From Apophysomyces variabilis (taxonomy: Eukaryota > Mucoromycota > Mucoromycetes > Mucorales > Mucoraceae), in the NCBI GenBank assembly GCA_002749535.1, contig MZZL01000403.1, forward strand, positions 954,209-1,018,208: 64,000 nt of DNA. The letters are read 5' to 3'. Made by a program: the position numbers and the translations under genes. Positions 26,217 to 64,000 of this stretch are shown one piece after another. Position 1 is the stretch's first letter, and every line of letters starts with the position of its first letter. The notes below the pieces were generated by a model that saw only the letters and a list, made by a program, of their open reading frames with translations, was not told the origin of the DNA and did no database searches.

Positions 26217-28809
26217 ATGTCGAAACCTTTGGTCATCAACACTCAGCTCGATCGTTCTCATGTTGCTTCACAGTGGCAAACTTCGCCTAGGGCAGGTACC
26301 GTTCGAGACGAAGACAGCACTACACTGTTAAAGAAGCGCGCAGTCACTGATACCATTTGCGAGGAGGACGAAGAAGAGGTCGAAGACGAAGAGGAAGAAG
26401 AAGAAGATGATGATGATGATGATGACGAAGACGAAGAGGATAATGATGATGATAGTTCTACTTTTACTTCTTCACCCAGCATCCCAGATGAAAACATTGA
26501 TTTTGATCTTTGCTATACACTCCATACATTTGTTGCCACGGTAGATGGTCAGGCATCCGTTGTTAAGGGCGATGCTATGACATTACTGGATGATTCCAAT
26601 TCATATTGGTGGCTAGTGAAGGTTCTAAAAACGTCCGAGATAGGATATATCCCTGCCGAAAATATCGAGGTAGCCTAGCTTTGATGCACAAACAGGCAGA
26701 TTTATTTACCTGTTTTTCCCTTCTGTTAGACTCCTTTCGAACGATTAGCACGTCTTAACAAACATCGCAATGTGGAGGTAAACAGAAATTTATAAAATGG
26801 AAATGGAATCTTAATACCAATGCAAACTCAGATGACCGCGACCGCGATACCTTCCATTGATACCCCACCAACTAAGAAACATAAGAAAAAGGTCACGCTC
26901 TCCAAGGAATTAAAGATGCAGTCGCAGATCATCTTGACCGGTAAGGACGACGATGACGAGCTCGAGGAGACCTATGAGGAGTGGGAAGAGGAGATGGACG
27001 ACGAGGATGTCGGAGTCGACGACACCAATCAGCGGAGTATGGATATGCACGAACGTGCTTCACCTCAGGAGTCCCAGGGGTGTAGCACCACAGACGACAG
27101 TGATACAGTTGCTGCAGCCCCAGCTCCATCTTGTCAGTCACCTCCTATTACGTCTCCAAAACCGTTGGAAAAAGAAGACAAGAAATCTACTCAAGCCATA
27201 GCTGCAGACACGTTGCGAAGATTCTTTTCGCGCAGTAAAAAAGACAAAGTAGAATCGCCAAAGAAAGCAACACCTATCACGCCAGATGAGTCGGATGTCG
27301 GTTCCTCCTTGTCAGCCTCCTCGACACTTTCGGCCGAAGAAAGTCCAAAACGTGAACGAACTCGTTCAATCATTCGAGTCTACGCAGGAAATATCAATGT
27401 CGGCGCGACCTACAATTCAGTTCTAGTGGACGAAAACACCAATGCCGAGCACTTACTGATGTTAGCCATGGAACGATTTCACATCTCTCAAATCGAAGGC
27501 AAGGCTGCAAGGAGATTAAGCACTAGTGGCATAGAGTACTATCTTACGGTGAAACCTATGGATGGAGGTAATGAAGGAAACATGAAAGAAAAACCTATTT
27601 CTTACGGCTGGGGTACTTCTAGACGAAATCACACTTGCACCTCAAGACAAGCCGTTAGAGATGTTCAACTCTCTTACAACTCATCTTACCACACCAATGC
27701 CGTCTTTAACACATATAAAACAATTATCTCAGCAATTTTCTACAGGTGACTTTAGTAAAGTCTCGAAAGCCAGACAACGAGCAAAAGCACGCTTCGGAGA
27801 AGACACGGCTATTCGATTTTATTTGCATAAGCGAATCAAACGAGTCAACGAACGTGACGGACAAATATACGTTAAGGTCTCGCTGTATGCCGATCCACCC
27901 GCAGAGAAGATAAACGCTGTCAATCGATCGTTTTCAACACGCAGCCTCCGACGTAAGAAACTGCAATACGCCGCTCAGGAACGGATAGACAAAATCATGG
28001 CTATTTCTCCCAACAGCGTTGTATCCGACCTAACTGCAATAGCACTTGAAAAATTCCACGTGCCACATGATACCCGAAGAGAAGATTATCGATTAATGCT
28101 ATCCATCAACGGAAAAGGTAAAGAAGAAATGCGATATCATTAAAAGAATGACTTTTTTACGTTTGTACCTTCAGAGAAACTATTACTTCCAGGTAGTAAA
28201 TTGGCTGAGATATTACACGACGACACCACACCAACTGGCTCAAACGAAAAGTCGTTTATTCTGCGTAAATCAATCTCATCATCTCGATCGAAAGATCAAT
28301 CATCTTCGTCATCCTCGTCTTCATTCTTGTCCAATTCAAGTAAGGTTGCTCCTGCCACTCTTCCAAGCTCACCACCATCCAACCGGCCGATCCCAGTACC
28401 ACATCTTGACGCCGACACCGAAAGCGTCCTGAAACGACTGGATAACGCCCTCTTAGCTCTGGAGAGGGAACGAGGAGTGACACGTCAACCTGCACAGCCT
28501 TCAATGGCTGTTGCACGGAACGCGGAGCAAGGCATTGATATTATTTTGCCACACGGCGTATTACGATCCAAGGTGTGCAACAATGAGGCCCAATATTCAC
28601 TCATGGCACCTGGTCAGGGAACAGTGATGCAGAAAGTAGTGCAGCCTGCACCGACGGAAACCCGTCAAATCGATAGCATCTCGGATGTGGACATAGCGAG
28701 TCTGGTTCGTTACGGCGCCACTTTTCTGGAAACTCGGGAAAAAAGTCCGTTATTTTTTGATCCACAGTCGAGTCTATCCAATATGGACGATCTAGAAAAG
28801 GTCTCATAG
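26217..28809 (+). CDS. SH3 and dual Ras-association domain scaffold protein
   Basis: Exons: 26217-26669, 26730-26777, 26832-27567, 27623-28117, 28175-28809, about 788 aa. A long Glu/Asp run (residues about 50-80) precedes an SH3 domain (LHTFVATVDGQASVVKGD...YWWLVKVLK...GYIPAENIE). The 48-nt second exon gives TPFERLARLNKHRNVE. There follow another acidic and Ser-rich linker, a first RA-like domain (SIIRVYAGNINVGATYNSVLV...HLLMLAMERF...YYLTVKPMDGGDEITL) and a second (DTAIRFYLHKRIK...VVSDLTAIALEKFHV...YRLMLSINGKG). The C-terminus is Ser-rich with a predicted helix (SVLKRLDNALLALERE). SH3-RA fungal proteins couple Ras/Rho-type GTPases to polarity or MAPK signalling; the partner is unknown. It probably works at the cytoplasmic cortex. 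The downstream CT repeat starts about 85 nt after the stop. Confidence 0.83.
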
Positions 28810-30024: not shown

Positions 30025-31659
30025 TTAATATTGTTTGTGAATGGCGAAAACGAAGAAAAGAACCCAGGCCACAAGCAAACAACAGCCAAAGAGAACAAGC
30101 CATATGATATTGAAGATCTTGACTTTGGTGTTAGAGTAGGAATCGAGACCTTGTTTTGTCAGGAAGAGTTCCTTGTCGTTGATCTCCTTCATGCGTTCCG
30201 TACGCTCTTTGCGGCTGACTTCAAGCAGATTCTTGAGGAAGACACGCTGGCTGATGAGAAGAGCGACAATCAAGACAAATCCGATACCGGACAGGATGAT
30301 GTACAGTAACAGAACACCGGTGTAGCTCTGCCCCTTGGTATTATCCTGAATGATGCCCGAGATGATGTCGAGAATCGTGGTACCGATGTTGTTGGAGCTC
30401 TTGTAGATGCCAAGACCCGTGCCAATGTAGTCGGAAGGAAGGATCATACCAATCGAGGTAATCATGGCGATGGGGCCGAAGGCGAGAGAGATACTGTAGA
30501 AAACCATACCAACGACGGCATCCACGTAAGTCCAGCCAAGAAGACCAAGACTGAGGAGAAGGAACACGGCAGAGATCAGGAGAATAAGGATACGCCGACC
30601 ATAATAGTCCATGATGAAACCCAAGATGGGGGTGGCGACAATAGGCACGACTTGGGAAGCGGAGGCCTTGTAAGCAGCCAGGACCTGTTTGGTTCCGAAA
30701 TGAACCTGGACAAGCTCGGTGGAGATGACCTGGAACGCGGACCAGACGGCGGCAAAGATGAATTCGATCAAAATAATGTGCCAGTAATAGGTAGGGAATT
30801 TCAAAACAGAATGCCAGTGGAATGTCTTCTTGGTCTTGAGCTTGTGAATTTCTTCCTTGGTCACGATCTCACCACGGAGCTTTCGAACGATCATGGCATA
30901 GATGAAGTTCATCAGAATAGAGAAACCGCAAAGAATGAAGGACAACCAGAAAGCCCAGACCCAGTCATTGGTCGCAATGGCAATTGGGTTGGCTACCATG
31001 GTACCGAGGAAACTCGAAAGGCGAGAGATGGACAGCTGAAGACCGATCGCAATCGAAAGGTGCTGGGTTCGGAACCATTTACTGAGGAGCGATTCTTGCA
31101 TTGTCACAATCAGACCGCTACCGATACCAAAAATGACGCGGGCTGCTACCATCAAGCCAAAGCTGGAATATTTGGCAGCAAGAGCTGTCAAAAGTGAACC
31201 GACGATAATCAGGACATTGACGCCCAGGGTGCCCCAGACAGAACCGAACATGTCAATGAAGATACCCGCAGCAATAGGGAAGATAGTGTTGATGATCGAT
31301 ACGGAGGCCGAAAGGACACCATACTGCGTGTTGTTGATTGCCAATTGCTTTTTAATGGTGCCTTTCATGGCACCTACGGCAGTATGCGCAAAGTGAGAAC
31401 CAACTAAGAAAGAAATTCGGGTTAGTTCATTCTTGGTCTTCTAAGCGATGGAAAATAAAAAGAAAGTGGAGGATATACCGGGCAACATCAACGCTGTGAC
31501 AAGGGCAATGACCTTGTATTTCCAGGGGGCGTTGGCAAAGGCAGTATCACCACCATGAGAAATGACCTGAGGCTCATCTTCCATGGGAACTTTTTCAATA
31601 GAACCCTCTAGGGACTGATCTTTCTCGTTAAGACGACCAGTCTCCGTTTTACTCGACAT
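30025..31659 (-). CDS. MFS transporter, MFSD1-like
   Basis: Two exons: 31659-31479 and 31403-30025, about 520 aa. The cytosolic N-terminus of about 45 residues is followed by about 12 hydrophobic segments. The MFS A-like motif lies after TM2-TM3 (GIFIDMFGSVWG, then RVIFGIGSGL) and the second-half copy is GFIMDYYGRR. The pattern NNTQYGVLSASVSIINTIFPIAAGIFID and QESLLSKWF matches the MFSD1-type group, whose animal member is a lysosomal dipeptide exporter; substrate and membrane here are unknown. The C-terminal half keeps YIGTGLGIYKSSNNIGTTI. The intron sits early, after the first part of TM1 (LMLP | VGSHFAH). A (GA)n tract lies just upstream of the start, in the 5' leader or promoter. A plus-strand open frame of 181 codons inside it is only its antisense shadow. 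Confidence 0.9.
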
Positions 31660-39629: not shown

Positions 39630-41049
39630 ATGCTCTCCCTCAAATCTCGATTTTTTTCCTCCCTTGTCATGAGTGATCTTTATATCGGTAGCCATACTGC
39701 AAGGTCAATGACCGCACGATGTACTCTCATGCGTGGAGGGACTTCTCGTGGTCCATTTTTCCTTGCCAACGATCTACCTAGTGACCCTTACGCTCGTGAC
39801 AAGGCACTTCTTGACCTAATGGGATCTGGCCATGAACTAATGATTGACGGTCTTGGCGGAGGCAATTCTCTAACAAGCAAAGTTGCTATCATCTCGCGCT
39901 CCAAGAGACCTGGTGTCGACGTGGATTATCTTTTTGCTCAAGTCGGTATCAAAAACCGTACGGTGGATATGCAAGCCAACTGCGGAAACATGATGGCAGC
40001 TGTGGGTAAGTTGAACTTGGTACTGCTTATCTATGCATCCTATATTAAACAAATAAACATCTTCTTTGTAATAGGTCCATTTGCCATTGAACGAGGTCTT
40101 GTAAGCGTTTCCCATCCTGAGACCACTGTGCGAGTGTATAATGAAAACACAAACAAATGTACCGACCTAGTAGTGCAGACGCCTGCAGGCCAGGTTCAAT
40201 ACGACGGAGATTGCGCTATCTCCGGTGTACCTGGCACAGCCTCTCCAATCTATATGCACTTCCGGGATGCTATCGGTGCAAAGACTGGAAAGATGCTACC
40301 AACAGGTCATACGGTCGATGTTATTCGCCATAAGCCTGTAAGCTGCCTAGATGTGGGCGTTCCGGTCATATTCTTACGGGCCCTTGATTTTGGATTGACT
40401 GCCACTGAATCACGTACTGAACTGAACAACAACAAGCCGCTATTGACCGAAATCGAGGCTATTCGACGGGAGGCTGGTTTTCTAATGGGCCTTGGAAATG
40501 TAGCTGGTTCTGTCTTGCCGAAAGTAGCTCTTATTGGGTTACCAACGACTGAGGAAGGCGTAGTGGCCGCCCGATACTTTGTTCCAGATTCATGCCACGC
40601 ATCCTTTGCAGTGACCGGTGCTCTTTGTCTTTCCAGCGCAGCAGTATTAAAGGGAACAGTTGTCAACGACATAGCCCAACCAAGGCTCAAACTGGTCGGC
40701 AAAAACCACGTCCCAATGGTGATTGAACATCCCTCTGGAAAGATACAAATTGAAACATTCCTTGATGATAACGGTAACTTCTCTCATGGTTCCATCGTAC
40801 GCACAGCACGCAAGATTTTCGAAGGATCTGTGTTCTACAATGTCCAGATCCCTGTGACACAGGTAAGAAGGAAACATACCAATCTCCCACCCGAAGATCA
40901 CAAAGTCTAACCTATTTTACCTTAGACCGGAAAGCGTCTATCAGAGTCAGAGGTAAGGAATAACATAATAGCTCTATCATTATATCTTATGGATGCAACC
41001 TTAGGCCCCTTTAGATCATTTCCTTTCGCCCACGGCTGTCGCTATTTAG
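39630..41049 (+). CDS. PrpF-family (DUF453) isomerase
   Basis: Exons: 39630-40005, 40075-40863, then probably 40926-40952 and 41005-41049; about 410 aa. The family signature includes CTLMRGGTSRGPFF (N-terminus, catalytic region), GGGNSLTSKVAII, VDMQANCGNM (conserved Cys), DGDCAISGVPGTASPI, and C-terminal EHPSGKIQIE and RTARKIFEG. PrpF proteins catalyse cis-trans or allylic isomerisation of aconitate-type acids, such as 2-methylaconitate in propionate breakdown or 4-oxalomesaconate in ring-acid catabolism. The 69-nt first intron is a multiple of three and stop-free, so unspliced reading adds a false hydrophobic insert. Placing the TATA box about 25 nt before the first ATG favours the second Met (39669, MSDLYIGS) as the real start. 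If the first ATG is used, MLSLKSRFFSSLV could target mitochondria. Confidence 0.88.
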
Positions 41050-56045: not shown

Positions 56046-59000
56046 ATGAAACGCTCTTTCTCTGGCGACACACAGCACGTAAAAAAGAAAATCTGCGATC
56101 GAAAAAGCACAACGCCGCCATCCCCATCGTCGTCATCCATAACAACATCCGCAAATAGCGATCTCCCCACCAAACAGCAAGACGACCAAATAAATACACC
56201 GACGTTAAAACTGTCTGACTCCTCTACTCCCGCCTCTGACTCACAGCACTCTTTGCCTGCCATGAGTCTTGCCGTCTTAAATCATGTCAAAGATATCGCA
56301 GTTAACCTTGATCAGGGCAAAATCGATTATTGTCTCAGCAACCGTTTACCGCCCGACACACTTGAACGGCTTAGCCCAGAAGATGCCGAAATTGCCAAGG
56401 CCATAGAAACAGCTCTCAAGAGCATTGCGGAACGTCAGTTGCAGCTACAATCCGATAATCTCAGATACCGGATAGCCATGGAACAGCAACGACGACTGTT
56501 AGGCTCACAGTGCGAACATGAGGAGACTCAGTCAGATCAGCAAGATATCGATAGGCCGCTGAAACGGTCACAAGAACAAGCAGAAGACGAAGAAGAAAAG
56601 GAACAGGAAGTCGAAAATGGACATTATCGGCCGGAGTCCTCGTCCTCTACGACTCCTGAACATGGTATCCAAACGATTAAAAACTCTTCTATGCTGAACA
56701 AAATGCAAGCTTACCCTCGCCAAATCATCTCAACATCCGCGCGGAACGATCAGCCAGGTAAGAAACTCAGGAAAGGAATCCGCTCCTGACATTGCTTACA
56801 GACTCATTACTACCCTCATCCTCTTCAATCGCCCCCGCTCCCGCCGCTGGTCTTACGACTGCCTCCTTGTCAACCACGCCTTTCACTGTTTCCTCTACTG
56901 CTATCGCTTATCCCGTTTATTTTGGATCACTCTCTTCTTCGATGCAATTCCCTGCTGCAACCACTCAAAGCTCTGCCGATAACATTGTATGCCCTGACTG
57001 TGTCATTCAAGCTGTCCAAGTCGCCTCTGCCGTCTTTGGTGGCAAACTTGATCAACGTATTGCCTGTAACCATGAACGATGTATTTCCGGCCCCGTCGAG
57101 CCTTCTGCACCCATAAATACCTTGAAAAACGCTGTCAATACCATGGCCGATCATCTAGAATTGATGGCCAAAGAGGTCATGTATGTGGCTCATGAAACAG
57201 CAGTCAAAGGAAAGCTCGGTGTGCAGGCACGCTGTGAAAATGAAATGAACGGTGTCTGGCGCGATTTCGTTGTCAATTTAAACAGCATGACTCGTAACCA
57301 TTTGGAACAAGTTCGTGATATTGCGGATGTATCGACAGCTATCGCTCGTGGTGATCTTAGTAAAGCTATGACGGTGCCTGTCAAAGGTGAAACACTACTA
57401 TTGAAGAACACGTTTAATACTATGGGTAAGTGGCTAATTCATCATTCCAAATAGACTTTTGCACTAACCCTTTTTTAAAGTCAACCAACTAAATCTATTT
57501 GCATCTGAGGTTTCACGTGTGGCTCACGAAGTCGGTACCGAAGGAAAGTTAGGCGCACAAGCCAAAGTCAACGGCGTCGATGGAATTTTGAAAGAATTGA
57601 CTGATAACGTAAATACCATGGCTGCCAATCTTACGAATCAAGTACGCGATATTGCCCAAGTGTCAAAATCAGTAGCTCGTGGCGATCTAACGAAAAAGGT
57701 TACTGTGGAAGTCAAAGGAGAAATGCTGGATTTGAAAAATACGATCAATACCATGGTGGATCAAGTAAAGTCTTTAGTTTTTAAACTCAATGGCTAAACT
57801 AAAAAGTTTAAACCGTTTCATTTAGCTCTCTATTTTTGCTACGGAAGTCACGCGCGTTTCGCTTGAAGTAGGAACGGAGGGAGTTTTAGGCGGTCAGGCT
57901 GTTGTGCAGGATGTCGATGGAACTTGGAAAGATCTGACCGATAATGTAAACATGATGGCTTACAAAATCACGAACCAAGTGCGGGATATCGCCTCTGTTG
58001 CCAAGGCTGTTGCCTGCGGTGATCTTAGCAAAAAAGTAACTGCGAACGCTCAAGGCGAAGTTTTGGACTTGATCAACACAATGAATAGGATGGTAAGGTT
58101 TGGTTAATTCCGTTTCATACAGAACCTAAAAGATATGCTGCAGGTTGACCAGCTGACATTGTTCTCGGCAGAAGTCCGCCGTGTTTCATTAGAGGTCGGG
58201 GTTGAAGGAAAATTAGGAGGACAAGCAGTTGTGAAAAACGTTGGCGGTGCTTGGAAAGATTTGACGGATAACGTCAACACAATGGCAGCGAATCTTACGA
58301 CACAAGTGCGATCGATTGCACAGGTCACCAAGGCGGTAGCAAAGGGTGATCTATCGAAAAAGATTGACGTCGAAGCTCGTGGAGAAATTCTTGATCTTAA
58401 AAATACTGTCAACAACATGGTAGATCAATTGAGTGTTTTCTCGACAGAGGTCACACGTGTTGCAAAAGAAGTAGGTACCGAAGGAAAGCTAGGTGGCCAG
58501 GCCAGAGTGCCGAATGTCGATGGAACTTGGAAAGACCTCACGGATAATGTAAATACCATGGCTACAAATCTCACTACGCAAGTGCGCTCCATTGCAGTTG
58601 TCACGAAGGCAGTTGCCGATGGCGATTTATCGAAGAAAATCTTGGTTAACGTGAGCGGTGAGATTTCGGATTTGAAGGACACTGTGAACAACATGGTAGA
58701 CCAACTGCGAGTTTTCTCCGGTGAAGTCACTCGTGTCGCAAGAGAAGTCGGCACTGAAGGCAAGCTTGGTGGAGAAGCTAATGTCCCAAGCGTTAGTGGA
58801 ACTTGGAAAGACCTGACTGATAATGTGAATACAATGGCAGCAAATCTGACCACCCAAGTACGATCGATTGCTCAGGTGACAAAGGCTGTAGCCAAAGGCG
58901 ACCTGTCCAAAAAGATCGATGTCGAGACTCGTGGTGAAATTTTAGATCTCAAAAACACTGTCAATAGTATGGTTGACCAGCTAAACATATTTGCTGCGGA

Positions 59001-62000
59001 AGTAACGCGGGTGGCCAAAGAGGTCGGAACGGACGGAAAATTGGGGGGACAAGCTCAAGTACCGAATGTGGATGGTACCTGGAAAGACTTGACAGACAAC
59101 GTAAACCAGATGGCTGCCAATTTAACAACTCAAGTACGATCGATTGCGGAAGTCACTAAGGCCGTCGCCAATGGCGATCTTTCGAAAAAGATCGAGGTCG
59201 AAACCAGAGGAGAGATTTTGGATCTTAAAAATATTGTGAATGACATGGTAGACCAACTACGTGTTTTCTCTGGGGAGGTCACCCGCGTCGCCAAAGAAGT
59301 TGGAACGCAAGGTTTGCTTGGTGGACAAGCCGTGGTGCCTAACGTAGGTGGCACATGGATGGATCTAACCGACAATGTCAATCACATGGCGGCCAATCTG
59401 ACAAACCAAGTGCGATCCATTGCCGAAGTTACAAAGGCTGTGGCCAACGGAGACCTATCGAGGAAGATCGAAGTTGAGAGTGGCGGCGAGATACTGGAAC
59501 TGAAAAACATCGTGAATAACATGGTGGATCAGCTACGTGTATTCGCATCTGAAGTAACGCGTGTATCCAAAGAAGTCGGTACTGAAGGAAAATTGGGCGG
59601 ACAAGCTGTTGTACAGGGTGTGGCTGGCACCTGGAATGAGCTTACAAATAATGTGAACATCATGGCAGCCAATCTAACGAACCAAGTACGATCCATTGCC
59701 GAAGTAACTAAAGCTGTCGCCAATGGAGACTTATCAAAGAAAATCGAAGTCGAGAGTGGTGGAGAAATTCTTGAATTGAAAAATATAGTCAATAACATGG
59801 TGGACCAACTGCGTATCTTTGCTTCCGAGGTTACGCGTGTATCTAAGGAAGTCGGTACAGAAGGCAAACTGGGCGGTCAAGCTGTTGTCCAGGGTGTGGC
59901 TGGCACCTGGAATGAGCTTACAAATAATGTGAACATCATGGCAGCCAATCTTACAACCCAAGTGCGATCCATTGCCGAAGTTACAAAGGCTGTTGCTTTA
60001 GGTGATCTTAGCAAAAAAATTGACGTTGAAACACGCGGTGAGATTCTTGAACTGAAAAACATCGTGAATGACATGGTGGATCAATTACGTATTTTCGCAT
60101 CTGAAGTAACGCGTGTATCCAAAGAAGTCGGTACTGAAGGAAAATTGGGCGGACAAGCTGTTGTACAAGGTGTTGCCGGCACCTGGAATGAATTGACAGA
60201 CAACGTAAACATCATGGCTGCCAATCTAACGAACCAAGTACGATCAATTGCCGAAGTCACTAAAGCAGTAGCCAATGGAGACTTGTCGAAGAAGATTGAA
60301 GTTGAAAGTGGTGGTGAAATCCTTGAGTTAAAGAACATTGTTAATAACATGGTGGACCAGCTACGTATCTTCGCATCAGAAGTCACTCGTGTATCGAAAG
60401 AAGTCGGTACAGAAGGCAAGCTGGGTGGTCAGGCTGTTGTTCAGGGCGTCGCCGGTACTTGGAATGAGCTTACCGATAATGTCAACCAAATGGCTGCAAA
60501 TTTGACAAACCAAGTGCGATCTATTGCCGAAGTCACCAAAGCTGTTGCCAATGGTGATCTGTCGAAGAAGATTGAAGTCGAGAGCGGCGGCGAAATCCTT
60601 GAGCTAAAGAATATCGTAAACAACATGGTGGATCAACTACGTGTATTTGCGTCGGAAGTAACGCGTGTAGCGCGAGAAGTAGGCACCGAAGGCAAACTGG
60701 GAGGACAAGCGGTTGTTCAGGGTGTTGCCGGTACTTGGATGGATCTCACAGACAATGTTAACACCATGGCGGCCAACCTAACAACGCAAGTACGCTCTAT
60801 TGCTCAGGTGACTAAAGCCGTTGCTGATGGTGATTTATCCAAAAAAATTGATGTTGAGACTCGTGGAGAAATCCTTGACTTGAAGAATACGGTGAATGAC
60901 ATGGTGGATCAGCTGCGTGTGTTTGCGGCTGAAGTAACGAGAGTATCCAAGGAAGTAGGAACGGAAGGCAAACTTGGAGGACAAGCCATGGTTGAAGGCG
61001 TCGCCGGTACATGGCATGAATTGACAGATAATGTCAACATCATGGCCGCCAATCTCACAAGTCAAGTACGCTCTATTGCTGAGGTCACAAAAGCCGTTGC
61101 TTTGGGCGACCTTAGTAAAAAGATCGAAGTTGAGAGTGGTGGTGAAATCCTCGAACTGAAAAATATTGTCAATAACATGGTTGATCAGTTGCGTATTTTC
61201 GCTTCCGAAGTAACGCGTGTATCTAAGGAAGTCGGTACAGAAGGAAAACTTGGTGGTCAAGCCATTGTACAGGGTGTTGCTGGTACATGGAACGAGCTTA
61301 CCGATAATGTCAACATCATGGCTGCCAATCTAACGAACCAAGTACGATCCATTGCTGAGGTGACAAAAGCTGTTGCCAGCGGTGACCTTTCCAAGAAGAT
61401 TGAAGTGGAAACCAAGGGCGAAATTCTGGATCTTAAGAACATTGTTAATGACATGGTGGATCAACTTCGTATTTTTGCGTCGGAAGTAACGCGTGTAGCT
61501 CGCGAAGTCGGCACCGAAGGAAAACTTGGAGGACAAGCTGTGGTACATGGTGTTGCTGGAACTTGGATGGACCTTACCGATAATGTCAACACCATGGCAG
61601 CCAATCTAACAACGCAAGTACGTTCTATTGCTCAGGTGACTAAAGCCGTTGCCAATGGTGATCTGTCGAAAAAGATCGAGGTCGAAACTCGTGGAGAAAT
61701 CCTTGATTTGAAAAATACAGTGAATGGCATGGTGGACCAGCTGCGTGTATTTGCATCCGAAGTCACTCGTGTATCAAAGGAAGTAGGAACGGAAGGCAAA
61801 CTGGGAGGACAGGCCCTTGTTCAAGGAGTTGCCGGTACTTGGATGGACCTTACTGACAACGTAAATACGATGGCTGCGAATCTTACCACGCAAGTACGAT
61901 CCATTGCCCAAGTGACGAAAGCAGTTGCTCTTGGAGACCTAAGCAAGAAAATCGAAGTAGAAACTAGAGGAGAGATCCTGGAACTGAAAAACATTGTGAA

Positions 62001-64000
62001 TGACATGGTGGACCAACTACGTATTTTTGCTTCCGAAGTAAGTCGTGTATCGAAAGAAGTCGGCACCGAAGGGAAACTGGGAGGACAAGCTGTCGTACAG
62101 GGTGTTGCCGGTACATGGAACGAGCTCACAAACAATGTCAACATCATGGCTGCCAATCTAACGAACCAAGTACGATCAATTGCCGAAGTCACTAAAGCAG
62201 TAGCCAATGGAGACTTGTCAAAGAAGATTGAAGTTGAAAGTGGTGGAGAAATTCTTGAATTGAAAAATATAGTCAATAACATGGTGGACCAACTGCGTAT
62301 CTTTGCTTCCGAGGTTACGCGTGTATCTAAGGAAGTCGGTACAGAAGGCAAACTGGGTGGTCAGGCTGTTGTTCAGGGCGTCGCCGGTACTTGGAATGAG
62401 CTTACCGATAATGTCAACCAAATGGCTGCAAATTTGACAAACCAAGTGCGATCTATTGCCGAAGTCACCAAAGCTGTCGCCAATGGTGATCTGAGTAAAA
62501 AGATCCATGTGGAAACTCGTGGTGAGATCCTGGATCTCAAAATTACTGTCAATAGTATGGTCGATCAATTACGTATCTTTGCATCCGAAGTAACGCGTGT
62601 GGCTCGCGAGGTCGGCACGGAAGGAAAACTGGGAGGACAGGCCGTTGTAGATGGCGTTGCTGGTACCTGGAAAGATCTCACAGATAATGTGAATTTGATG
62701 GCAGGCAATCTTACTACCCAAGTTCGTTCAATTGCTCTTGTGACAACGGCTGTGGCACGTGGCGATCTCTCGAGAAAGATTGTCGTGGAAGTTCAGGGCG
62801 AGATTTTACAGCTAAAGTAAGCGGTAAAGTTTTCCACATTTGCATTCTAATCCGCTGTTATGCTACAGGAATACTGTTAATTCTATGGTGGACCAGCTTC
62901 GTGTCTTTGCAGCCGAAGTAACTCGAGTCGCTAGAGAAGTCGGCACTGAAGGAAAACTGGGAGGACAGGCAACCATCATCGGAGTAGACGGAACTTGGAA
63001 AGATTTGACTGACAACGTCAATTTGATGGCTAGTAATCTAACCGATCAACTGCGAGCCATTGCCGCTGTCTGTAAAGCTGTTGCGCAAGGTGATCTATCC
63101 AAAAAGATTGAAGTAGAGGTGCACGGAGAAATTGCAGAATTGAAGAACACGATCAACACCATGGTGGACCAACTGAGTTCGTTTGCTTCAGAAGTGACAC
63201 GCGTTGCACGCGAGGTCGGTACTGAGGGTAGACTTGGCGTACAAGCTCAAGTTATGGATGTTGAAGGTGTCTGGCGCGAAATCACAAGCAATGTCAATAC
63301 CATGGCGTTGAATCTGACCACACAAGTCCGTGCGTTTGCTCAGATCTCTGCTGCTGCTACTGCAAATGATTTCTCGCGGTTGATTACAGTTGAAGCTTCT
63401 GGTGAAATGGATGCGCTAAAGACAAAGATCAATGCTATGGTTGGCTCACTTCGTGATGCAATTCATAAACATCGACTGGCAAGAGATGCAGCAGAATTTG
63501 CAAATCGTTCCAAGAGTGAGTTCTTGGCCAACATGAGTCACGAAATTCGTACGCCCATGAACGGCATTATCGGCATGACGTCATTGACATTGGAAACCGA
63601 GCTGACTCGTCAGCAACGAGAAAACTTGATGATCGTTTCAAGCTTGGCTAACAGCTTATTAACGATCATTGATGACATTCTGGATATCTCCAAAATCGAA
63701 GCTGGACGCATGACTATTGAATCAATTCCTTTCTCATTACGATCAGCTATCTTTAGCGTATTGAAGACTCTTGCTGTCAAAGCAAACCAGAAGAAACTAG
63801 ATCTGATTTATAACGTGGATAGTTCTATTCCGGACCAGTTGATTGGTGACCCTCTTCGTCTTCGCCAGGTGATCACTAATTTAATCGGAAATGCTGTCAA
63901 GTTTACTACCCGAGGTGAAGTTGTACTACAGACTCGTGTGCTTGAAATGGAAGGCAATTGTGTAAGACTTCAACTATGTGTTAGCGATACGGGCATTGGT
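56046..64000 (+). CDS. NIK1: group III hybrid histidine kinase (NIK1/Os-1 type), giant HAMP array, 3'-truncated by window
   Basis: Exons: 56046-56757, 56802-57425, 57481-57764, 57826-58092, 58144-62816, 62869 to window end; 2,564 codons so far. The N-terminal 250 residues are Ser/Thr-rich and acidic with no membrane segment, so the protein is cytosolic. Then comes a poly-HAMP region of at least 22 units of 92 residues. The HisKA domain follows ([19 protein letters not shown]; phospho-His codon 63539-63541), then the N box ([10 protein letters not shown]) and the start of the G1 box (DTGIG) at the edge. The rest of the HATPase and a receiver domain are expected beyond it. Group III kinases sit above the HOG MAPK pathway, sense osmotic stress and mediate phenylpyrrole/dicarboximide fungicide response through the HAMP region. 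Usual members are about 1,100-1,300 aa with five to nine HAMPs, so this one is more than twice as long. All splice junctions are GT...AG and in phase. Confidence 0.93.
56985..63470 (+). repeat. 276-bp coding repeat array: 22 clear HAMP units plus a divergent first one
   Basis: Each unit follows the scheme [62 protein letters not shown], 92 residues. The spacing of identical words (for example TGGAATGAGCTTACAAATAA at 59632 and 59908) is exactly 276 bp. Counting the GDLS/T-KK core gives 22: one in exon 2, one in exon 3, one in exon 4, 17 in exon 5, and two after the last intron (the final one being NDFSRLI). A degenerate unit (GKLDQRI) precedes them. Outer units are divergent; inner ones are nearly identical. 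Confidence 0.95.

Follow-up and report, generated by a model that had tools for sequence, protein, structure and literature searches.

A putative group III hybrid histidine kinase of Apophysomyces variabilis with 22 tandem 92-residue HAMP repeats

We analyzed a stretch of 64,000 nucleotides (the window) of contig MZZL01000403.1 from the genome of Apophysomyces variabilis (38.7 Mb, 126 contigs). A gene encoding an intact hybrid histidine kinase of 2916 amino acids lies on the forward strand, from its ATG at position 56046 to a stop at window-scale position 65166, with the final 1166 bases past the window end on the same contig. The original prediction, which was made from the sequence of the window, had placed the kinase at 56985-63470 and so gave it too short an extent. 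The gene was spliced by hand at GT-AG sites into eight exons without internal stops: exons 1-3 (56046-56757, 56802-57425, 57481-57764), exons 4-6 (57826-58092, 58144-62816, 62869-64062), the last of which crosses the window end, and exons 7-8, which lie beyond the window. The layout is the same in a protein of Apophysomyces ossiformis. All seven introns are GT-AG introns of 44-61 bases, and the 52-base intron at 62817-62868 explains the seeming break between open frames of 1561 and 387 amino acids. Other genes in the window encode a Ras-association domain protein (26820-27746, forward strand), an MFS transporter (30028-31368, reverse strand) and a PrpF-like protein (39630-40907, forward strand), and a FAD-binding exon is found downstream of the kinase gene on the same contig (L009:6438-6755). 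A tRNA scan found none, and a comparison of 1001 bases with phage sequences gave no match.

The kinase core is complete. A HisKA domain (63509..63706, PF00512, E = 1.3e-19) contains the H box SHEIRTP at residue 2410 (63536-63556), and the start of a HATPase_c domain (63845..64000, PF02518) contains the N box NLIGNAVKF at residue 2524 (63878-63904). The rest of the HATPase domain and the C-terminal receiver domain (PF00072) were detected beyond the window on the same contig. Pfam and motif reading thus agree that HisKA, HATPase and receiver are all present with intact motifs, and the H box and N box follow the array as predicted. The region ahead of the HAMP domains (residues 1-299, 56046..56986) contains a basic KR-x9-KKK motif at residues 2-15, and exon 1 gave no Pfam match. 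In a simple hydropathy scan the maximum was 1.65, inside HisKA, with 1.57 near residue 299. The main protein search was performed with a query of 2564 amino acids and a length filter that excludes short kinases, which were covered by two further searches. The closest protein among the matches listed was A. ossiformis EC973_008076, which is 99% identical within the region searched, and the search with the kinase region listed Mucorales proteins that share these arrays and have names including NIK1 and Os-1. Judged by this similarity to neighbors that bear both group III names and arrays, the gene is probably a group III (Nik1/Os-1-type) kinase. This agrees with the earlier assignment to a group III-type kinase of the Mucoromycota, given the array, the intact core and a closest listed match in the Mucorales.

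The N-terminal part of fungal group III kinases is described as carrying HAMP repeats in tandem, each about 90 residues long (PMC4965123, PMC3848655). A 92-residue repeat profile, built on this gene and the paralogue described below, identified 22 units at residues 360-2384 (57167..63460, forward strand). Three introns fall within units 1-3 or at their ends, and a fourth interrupts unit 20. Twenty of the 21 spacings are exactly 92 residues and one is 93. The canonical cores of the 22 units are GDLSKK (17 units), GDLSRK (two units) and GDLSKA, GDLTKK (unit 2) and NDFSRL (one unit each), which bears out the 22 GDLSKK-type cores at a 92-residue period seen initially. The Pfam HAMP model matched exon 5 alone in 16 stretches (E = 2.5e-167) and exons 2, 3, 4 and the C-terminal exon in one stretch each. 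A count with this model, proposed earlier as a check, therefore recovered 20 of the 22 units and missed the intron-split unit 20 and the degenerate unit 22. Ahead of unit 1 there seems to be a single degenerate HAMP at about residues 300-355 (56987..57154, forward strand); it was called by eye from the alignment and gave no profile match.

The fold of the units was addressed with a structure model covering the final two units plus the start of the kinase (a monomer with mean pLDDT 77 and pTM 0.36, from five models spanning pLDDT 50-77). This model has two helix-connector-helix modules per unit (helices 42-72, 87-119, 134-164, and 179-241, with connectors between), and the second helix of one module continues into the first helix of the next. 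By sequence, units 5-8 match the solved HAMP array 9trk (E = 1.7e-82). In PMC3848655, the five repeats of CaNik1 of Candida albicans are described as nine HAMPs in 92-residue pairs. These three lines indicate that each 92-residue unit consists of two HAMPs, and the 22 repeats together with the lone HAMP would therefore amount to about 45 HAMPs. The 22 repeats behind the first estimate of at least 22 HAMP domains hold, while its units are HAMP pairs; when it set this number against the five to nine HAMP units of known kinases, it confused repeats with HAMPs. That the HAMPs are consecutive and joined by continuous helices, two per unit, is a model-based prediction only, and a rod form of the array is structurally plausible. 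The graded sensor and the altered response to osmotic stress or fungicides that were proposed initially are hypothetical. A profile-profile comparison of the unit halves gave only 13 matched columns, all common to both input pieces, and the best 50 of 350 Foldseek matches were kinase-core structures, with nothing bearing on the array.

The genome has 32 HAMP matches, all of them on contigs C89 and C94. On C94 we identified a paralogue (L010:920-7421), a group III kinase of 2036 amino acids with 13 units. Entries of paralogue size have 13 units in A. ossiformis and 15 in Apophysomyces sp. BC1034, which suggests from sequence that there are two length classes in Apophysomyces, of 13-15 and 19-22 units. 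The two paralogues have their introns at units 1-3 in identical positions and phases. In the window gene these introns (57426-57480, 57765-57825, and 58093-58143) occupy almost identical points within the repeat, as would be the case had the first units been born as exon copies, and units 4-19 are intronless. The intron in unit 20 (62817-62868) is present in the window gene and absent from the paralogue.

For an array of similar repeats it has to be considered that the true gene has far fewer units, some of which were duplicated by the assembler. An exact repeat of 125 bases shared by units 12 and 19, the longest in the array, would fit such an expansion, as would the 19 units of Apophysomyces sp. 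BC1015 (P0047) compared to the 22 of BC1034 (P0010). The units are, however, diverged: any two of them are at most 89.5% identical in DNA, and units 5-19 have a mean identity of 75% in DNA and 85% in protein, with fourfold sites differing at 62%. Moreover, A. ossiformis has 22 units that correspond one-to-one in the same order, with 93-100% identity for units 2-22 and 98% for the unit 1 region. Because of the fourfold divergence, the small dN values given below and the same 22 ordered units in A. ossiformis, we consider an assembly expansion highly improbable. The difference between BC1015 and BC1034 lies between units 8 and 13 and could reflect either a recent real gain or loss of units or a collapse during assembly. 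For ten window-paralogue unit pairs, dN was 0.02-0.10, with dS of 2.3-3.3 in four pairs and saturated, hence not computable, in six; for six close pairs within the array, dN was 0.007-0.066 and dS 0.61-1.01. By these estimates all unit pairs tested, including middle ones, are under strong purifying selection.

To place the array length among relatives, units were counted in the proteins returned by three protein searches, each of which scored about 8000 candidates sharing most words and listed 120 of them; all counts refer to the matches listed rather than to all fungi, taxon groups were assigned from the protein names as given, and the choice of threshold changes a count by one or two units (41, 39 or 40 for P0002). 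The searches returned 289 proteins, 252 of them with at least one unit, and among these 252 there were 31 with more than 22 units and six with 22. The 43 Mucorales proteins listed in the main search (three Apophysomyces proteins excluded, several species present twice) have 17-26 units. A further 32 Mucorales proteins listed in the kinase-region search, again excluding Apophysomyces, have 10-17 units; many of these look like the shorter paralogue class, and part of them show irregular spacings suggesting faulty gene models. Beyond the Mucorales, the matches listed include arrays of 21-30 units in Mortierellomycotina (n = 10), 25-28 in Dacrymycetes (n = 3), 22 and 24 in Dimargaritales (n = 2) and 17-40 in Kickxellomycotina and kin (n = 8; six without H box, several labeled partial), and likewise 17 and 7 units in Umbelopsis (n = 2), 20 and 11 in Basidiobolus (n = 2), 15 in one Mycena and 11 in one chytrid. 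Shorter arrays were listed for Glomeromycotina (7-9 units, n = 9), Entomophthoromycotina (9 units, n = 2), Pucciniomycotina (5-6 units, n = 15), Tremellomycetes (6 units, n = 8) and Ascomycota (4 and 5 units, n = 2); the basidiomycete yeasts among the matches listed have 5-6 units. Eleven named bacterial entries have 14-18 units. The longest arrays listed were found in P0002 of Linderina pennispora (partial, about 40 units) and P0009 of Kickxella alabastrina (33 units). Many short or partial entries (Rhizopus, Mortierella and others) have 1-6 units and were left out of the lineage counts. Several of these may be truncated gene models, and the Rhizopus microsporus protein P0202 (1103 amino acids, 6 units) could be genuinely short. 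The returned proteins and the two genes of this genome together have 3076 spacings in the range of 60-130 residues; of these, 2841 are exactly 92, 100 are 93 and 45 are 97.

With 31 of 252 unit-bearing proteins exceeding 22 units and 43 Mucorales proteins having 17-26 among the matches listed, 22 units is not rare, and the exceptional length initially claimed does not hold. It had been foreseen that orthologues might all have about 22 units; the listed Mucorales proteins with 17-26 units largely agree with this, but a second Mucorales class has 10-17. On the basis of these comparisons, long arrays are a lineage trait and the window gene is typical for its lineage.

Comparison of the units indicated where length varies. 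Units 2-8 of the window gene (57501..59544) are matched in order by units 2-8 of the paralogue with 86-96% protein identity, although unit 7 is by DNA nearer to paralogue unit 8. The end units 21 and 22, directly ahead of the kinase (62909..63460), match paralogue units 12 and 13 at 96 and 91%. Between these ends there are twelve units in the window gene (units 9-20, 59545..62908) vs. three in the paralogue. The best matches in the 43 Mucorales proteins followed a similar pattern. Counted from the N-terminus, units 2-6 keep their index in 39, 39, 37, 37, and 30 proteins, respectively, and units 7 and 8 in 17 and 5. Counted from the C-terminus, units 21 and 22 keep it in 41 and 38 proteins, compared with 23 and 17 for units 19 and 20. 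For units 9-18 the index is kept in 0-12 of the 43 when counting starts at the N-terminus and in 2-9 when it starts at the C-terminus. The Mortierella entries have a single fixed unit, the last one (10 of 10 entries), and this unit is also fixed in seven of eight other fungi and in none of eight bacteria. Similar middle units occur in blocks (9, 11 and 18; 12 and 19; 13 and 16). As raw counts over related proteins and paralogues, in which near-identical middle units are hard to index, these numbers make the contrast between ends and middle suggestive rather than proven. The sequences suggest that in Mucorales arrays the end units mostly hold their place while the number of middle units varies and the unit length stays at 92.

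Group III kinases signal to Hog1 and are required for the action of fludioxonil, and agricultural fungicides act through them. We consider it probable that the window gene encodes an intact, soluble Nik1/Os-1-type kinase in which a dimeric poly-HAMP rod with fixed ends and a spacer-like middle relays a signal to the Hog1 pathway; the dimeric rod, the relay and the link to Hog1 are parts that we infer as the best explanation. The 22 units and the lone HAMP would form a dimeric coiled-coil rod, which fully extended would measure about 0.1 micrometer (about 45 HAMPs of roughly 2.3 nm each, estimated from helix length). A signal would alter the packing state of the rod, and this change would pass on to the HisKA helices and shift the balance between kinase and phosphatase activity, which in turn would set the phosphate flow via the receiver into a Ypd1-type carrier and onward to the Hog1 pathway. 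The end units would act as fixed adapters, and in the spacer-like middle whole 92-residue units could be gained or lost with the helical phase kept. Continuous helices would require a fixed pitch.

Whether array length itself matters is a separate question. It is conceivable, though we put it at somewhat under an even chance, that length drifts neutrally and the number of middle units changes by unequal exchange without affecting signaling, which would fit the wide variation of the middle block and the sets of similar units within it (9, 11 and 18; 12 and 19; 13 and 16). The strong purifying selection on the middle units (the six within-array pairs above) speaks against neutrality, and therefore each unit appears constrained, but this does not extend to the number of units. 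More tentatively, and rather doubtfully at present, the Mucorales kinases could be adjustable-length rods with fixed input and output ends and a middle that evolves by whole units, length being a selected setting of reach or response threshold and the two length classes being maintained as paralogues within one genome; Mucorales arrays would range from about 10 to 26 units, and the Linderina protein would reach about 40. A different role, as a DNA-binding or nuclear scaffold rather than mainly a signal rod, seems unlikely to us. Published work reports that TcsC of Aspergillus fumigatus is nuclear via its N-terminus, but also that its osmotic response is independent of nuclear location (PMC11253588), and that two myxobacterial proteins bind DNA, AskB in vitro and AskA in a pull-down (PMC7643160). 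The window protein has the basic motif at residues 2-15, and HTH_6 and SpoIIID exceed the Pfam cut-off on the array as a whole (58144-62814). No single HTH_6 or SpoIIID stretch passes alone, the score being summed over repeats, and plainly unrelated families match as well, so these matches look like repeat artifacts. The same two families are cited for DNA binding by AskA and AskB in PMC7643160, where the matches may be repeat artifacts too.

Compared to known systems, the layout of the window kinase is shared by A. ossiformis EC973_008076 (P0016; 2923 amino acids vs. 2916 here, with the same 22 units in order) and by the Mucorales orthologues, which differ in the number of middle units. CaNik1, Os-1, Bos1 and TcsC also have tandem 92-residue HAMP pairs, HisKA, HATPase and receiver, and the HAMPs have a role in group III kinases, according to PMC3848655 and PMC3418262. 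In these Dikarya kinases there are five or six repeats vs. 22 in the window gene. Among the matches listed, bacterial poly-HAMP hybrid kinases share this unit, at 64-70% identity within the region searched, in arrays of 14-18 units (11 named entries), with listed domains including GAF (PF13185). The solved arrays 9trk and 9trj (labeled histidine kinase, Gcn4p) and Aer2 are also concatenated HAMPs, but in short chains; 9trk aligns directly with the window units and Aer2 (3vol) weakly. Adjacent HAMPs in Aer2 are described as alternating in conformation and sending opposite signals (PMC3570549). Group III kinases are reported from early diverging fungi in a paper whose main text does not contain the word HAMP (PMC5285503). 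Our search by titles and abstract openings, with most subscription journals outside its scope, found no report of long arrays in Mucorales kinases. Long HAMP arrays were reportedly described by Dunin-Horkawicz and Lupas in 2010, and the general fact of their existence may thus already be published.

The results correct the picture based on Dikarya, with five or six repeats: among the matches listed, arrays with two to seven times as many are common in Mucorales and several other fungal groups. The capped anatomy of the array is the less expected result and the part worth following, and natural length variants with mostly fixed ends would offer a way to test the role of array length in HAMP signaling.
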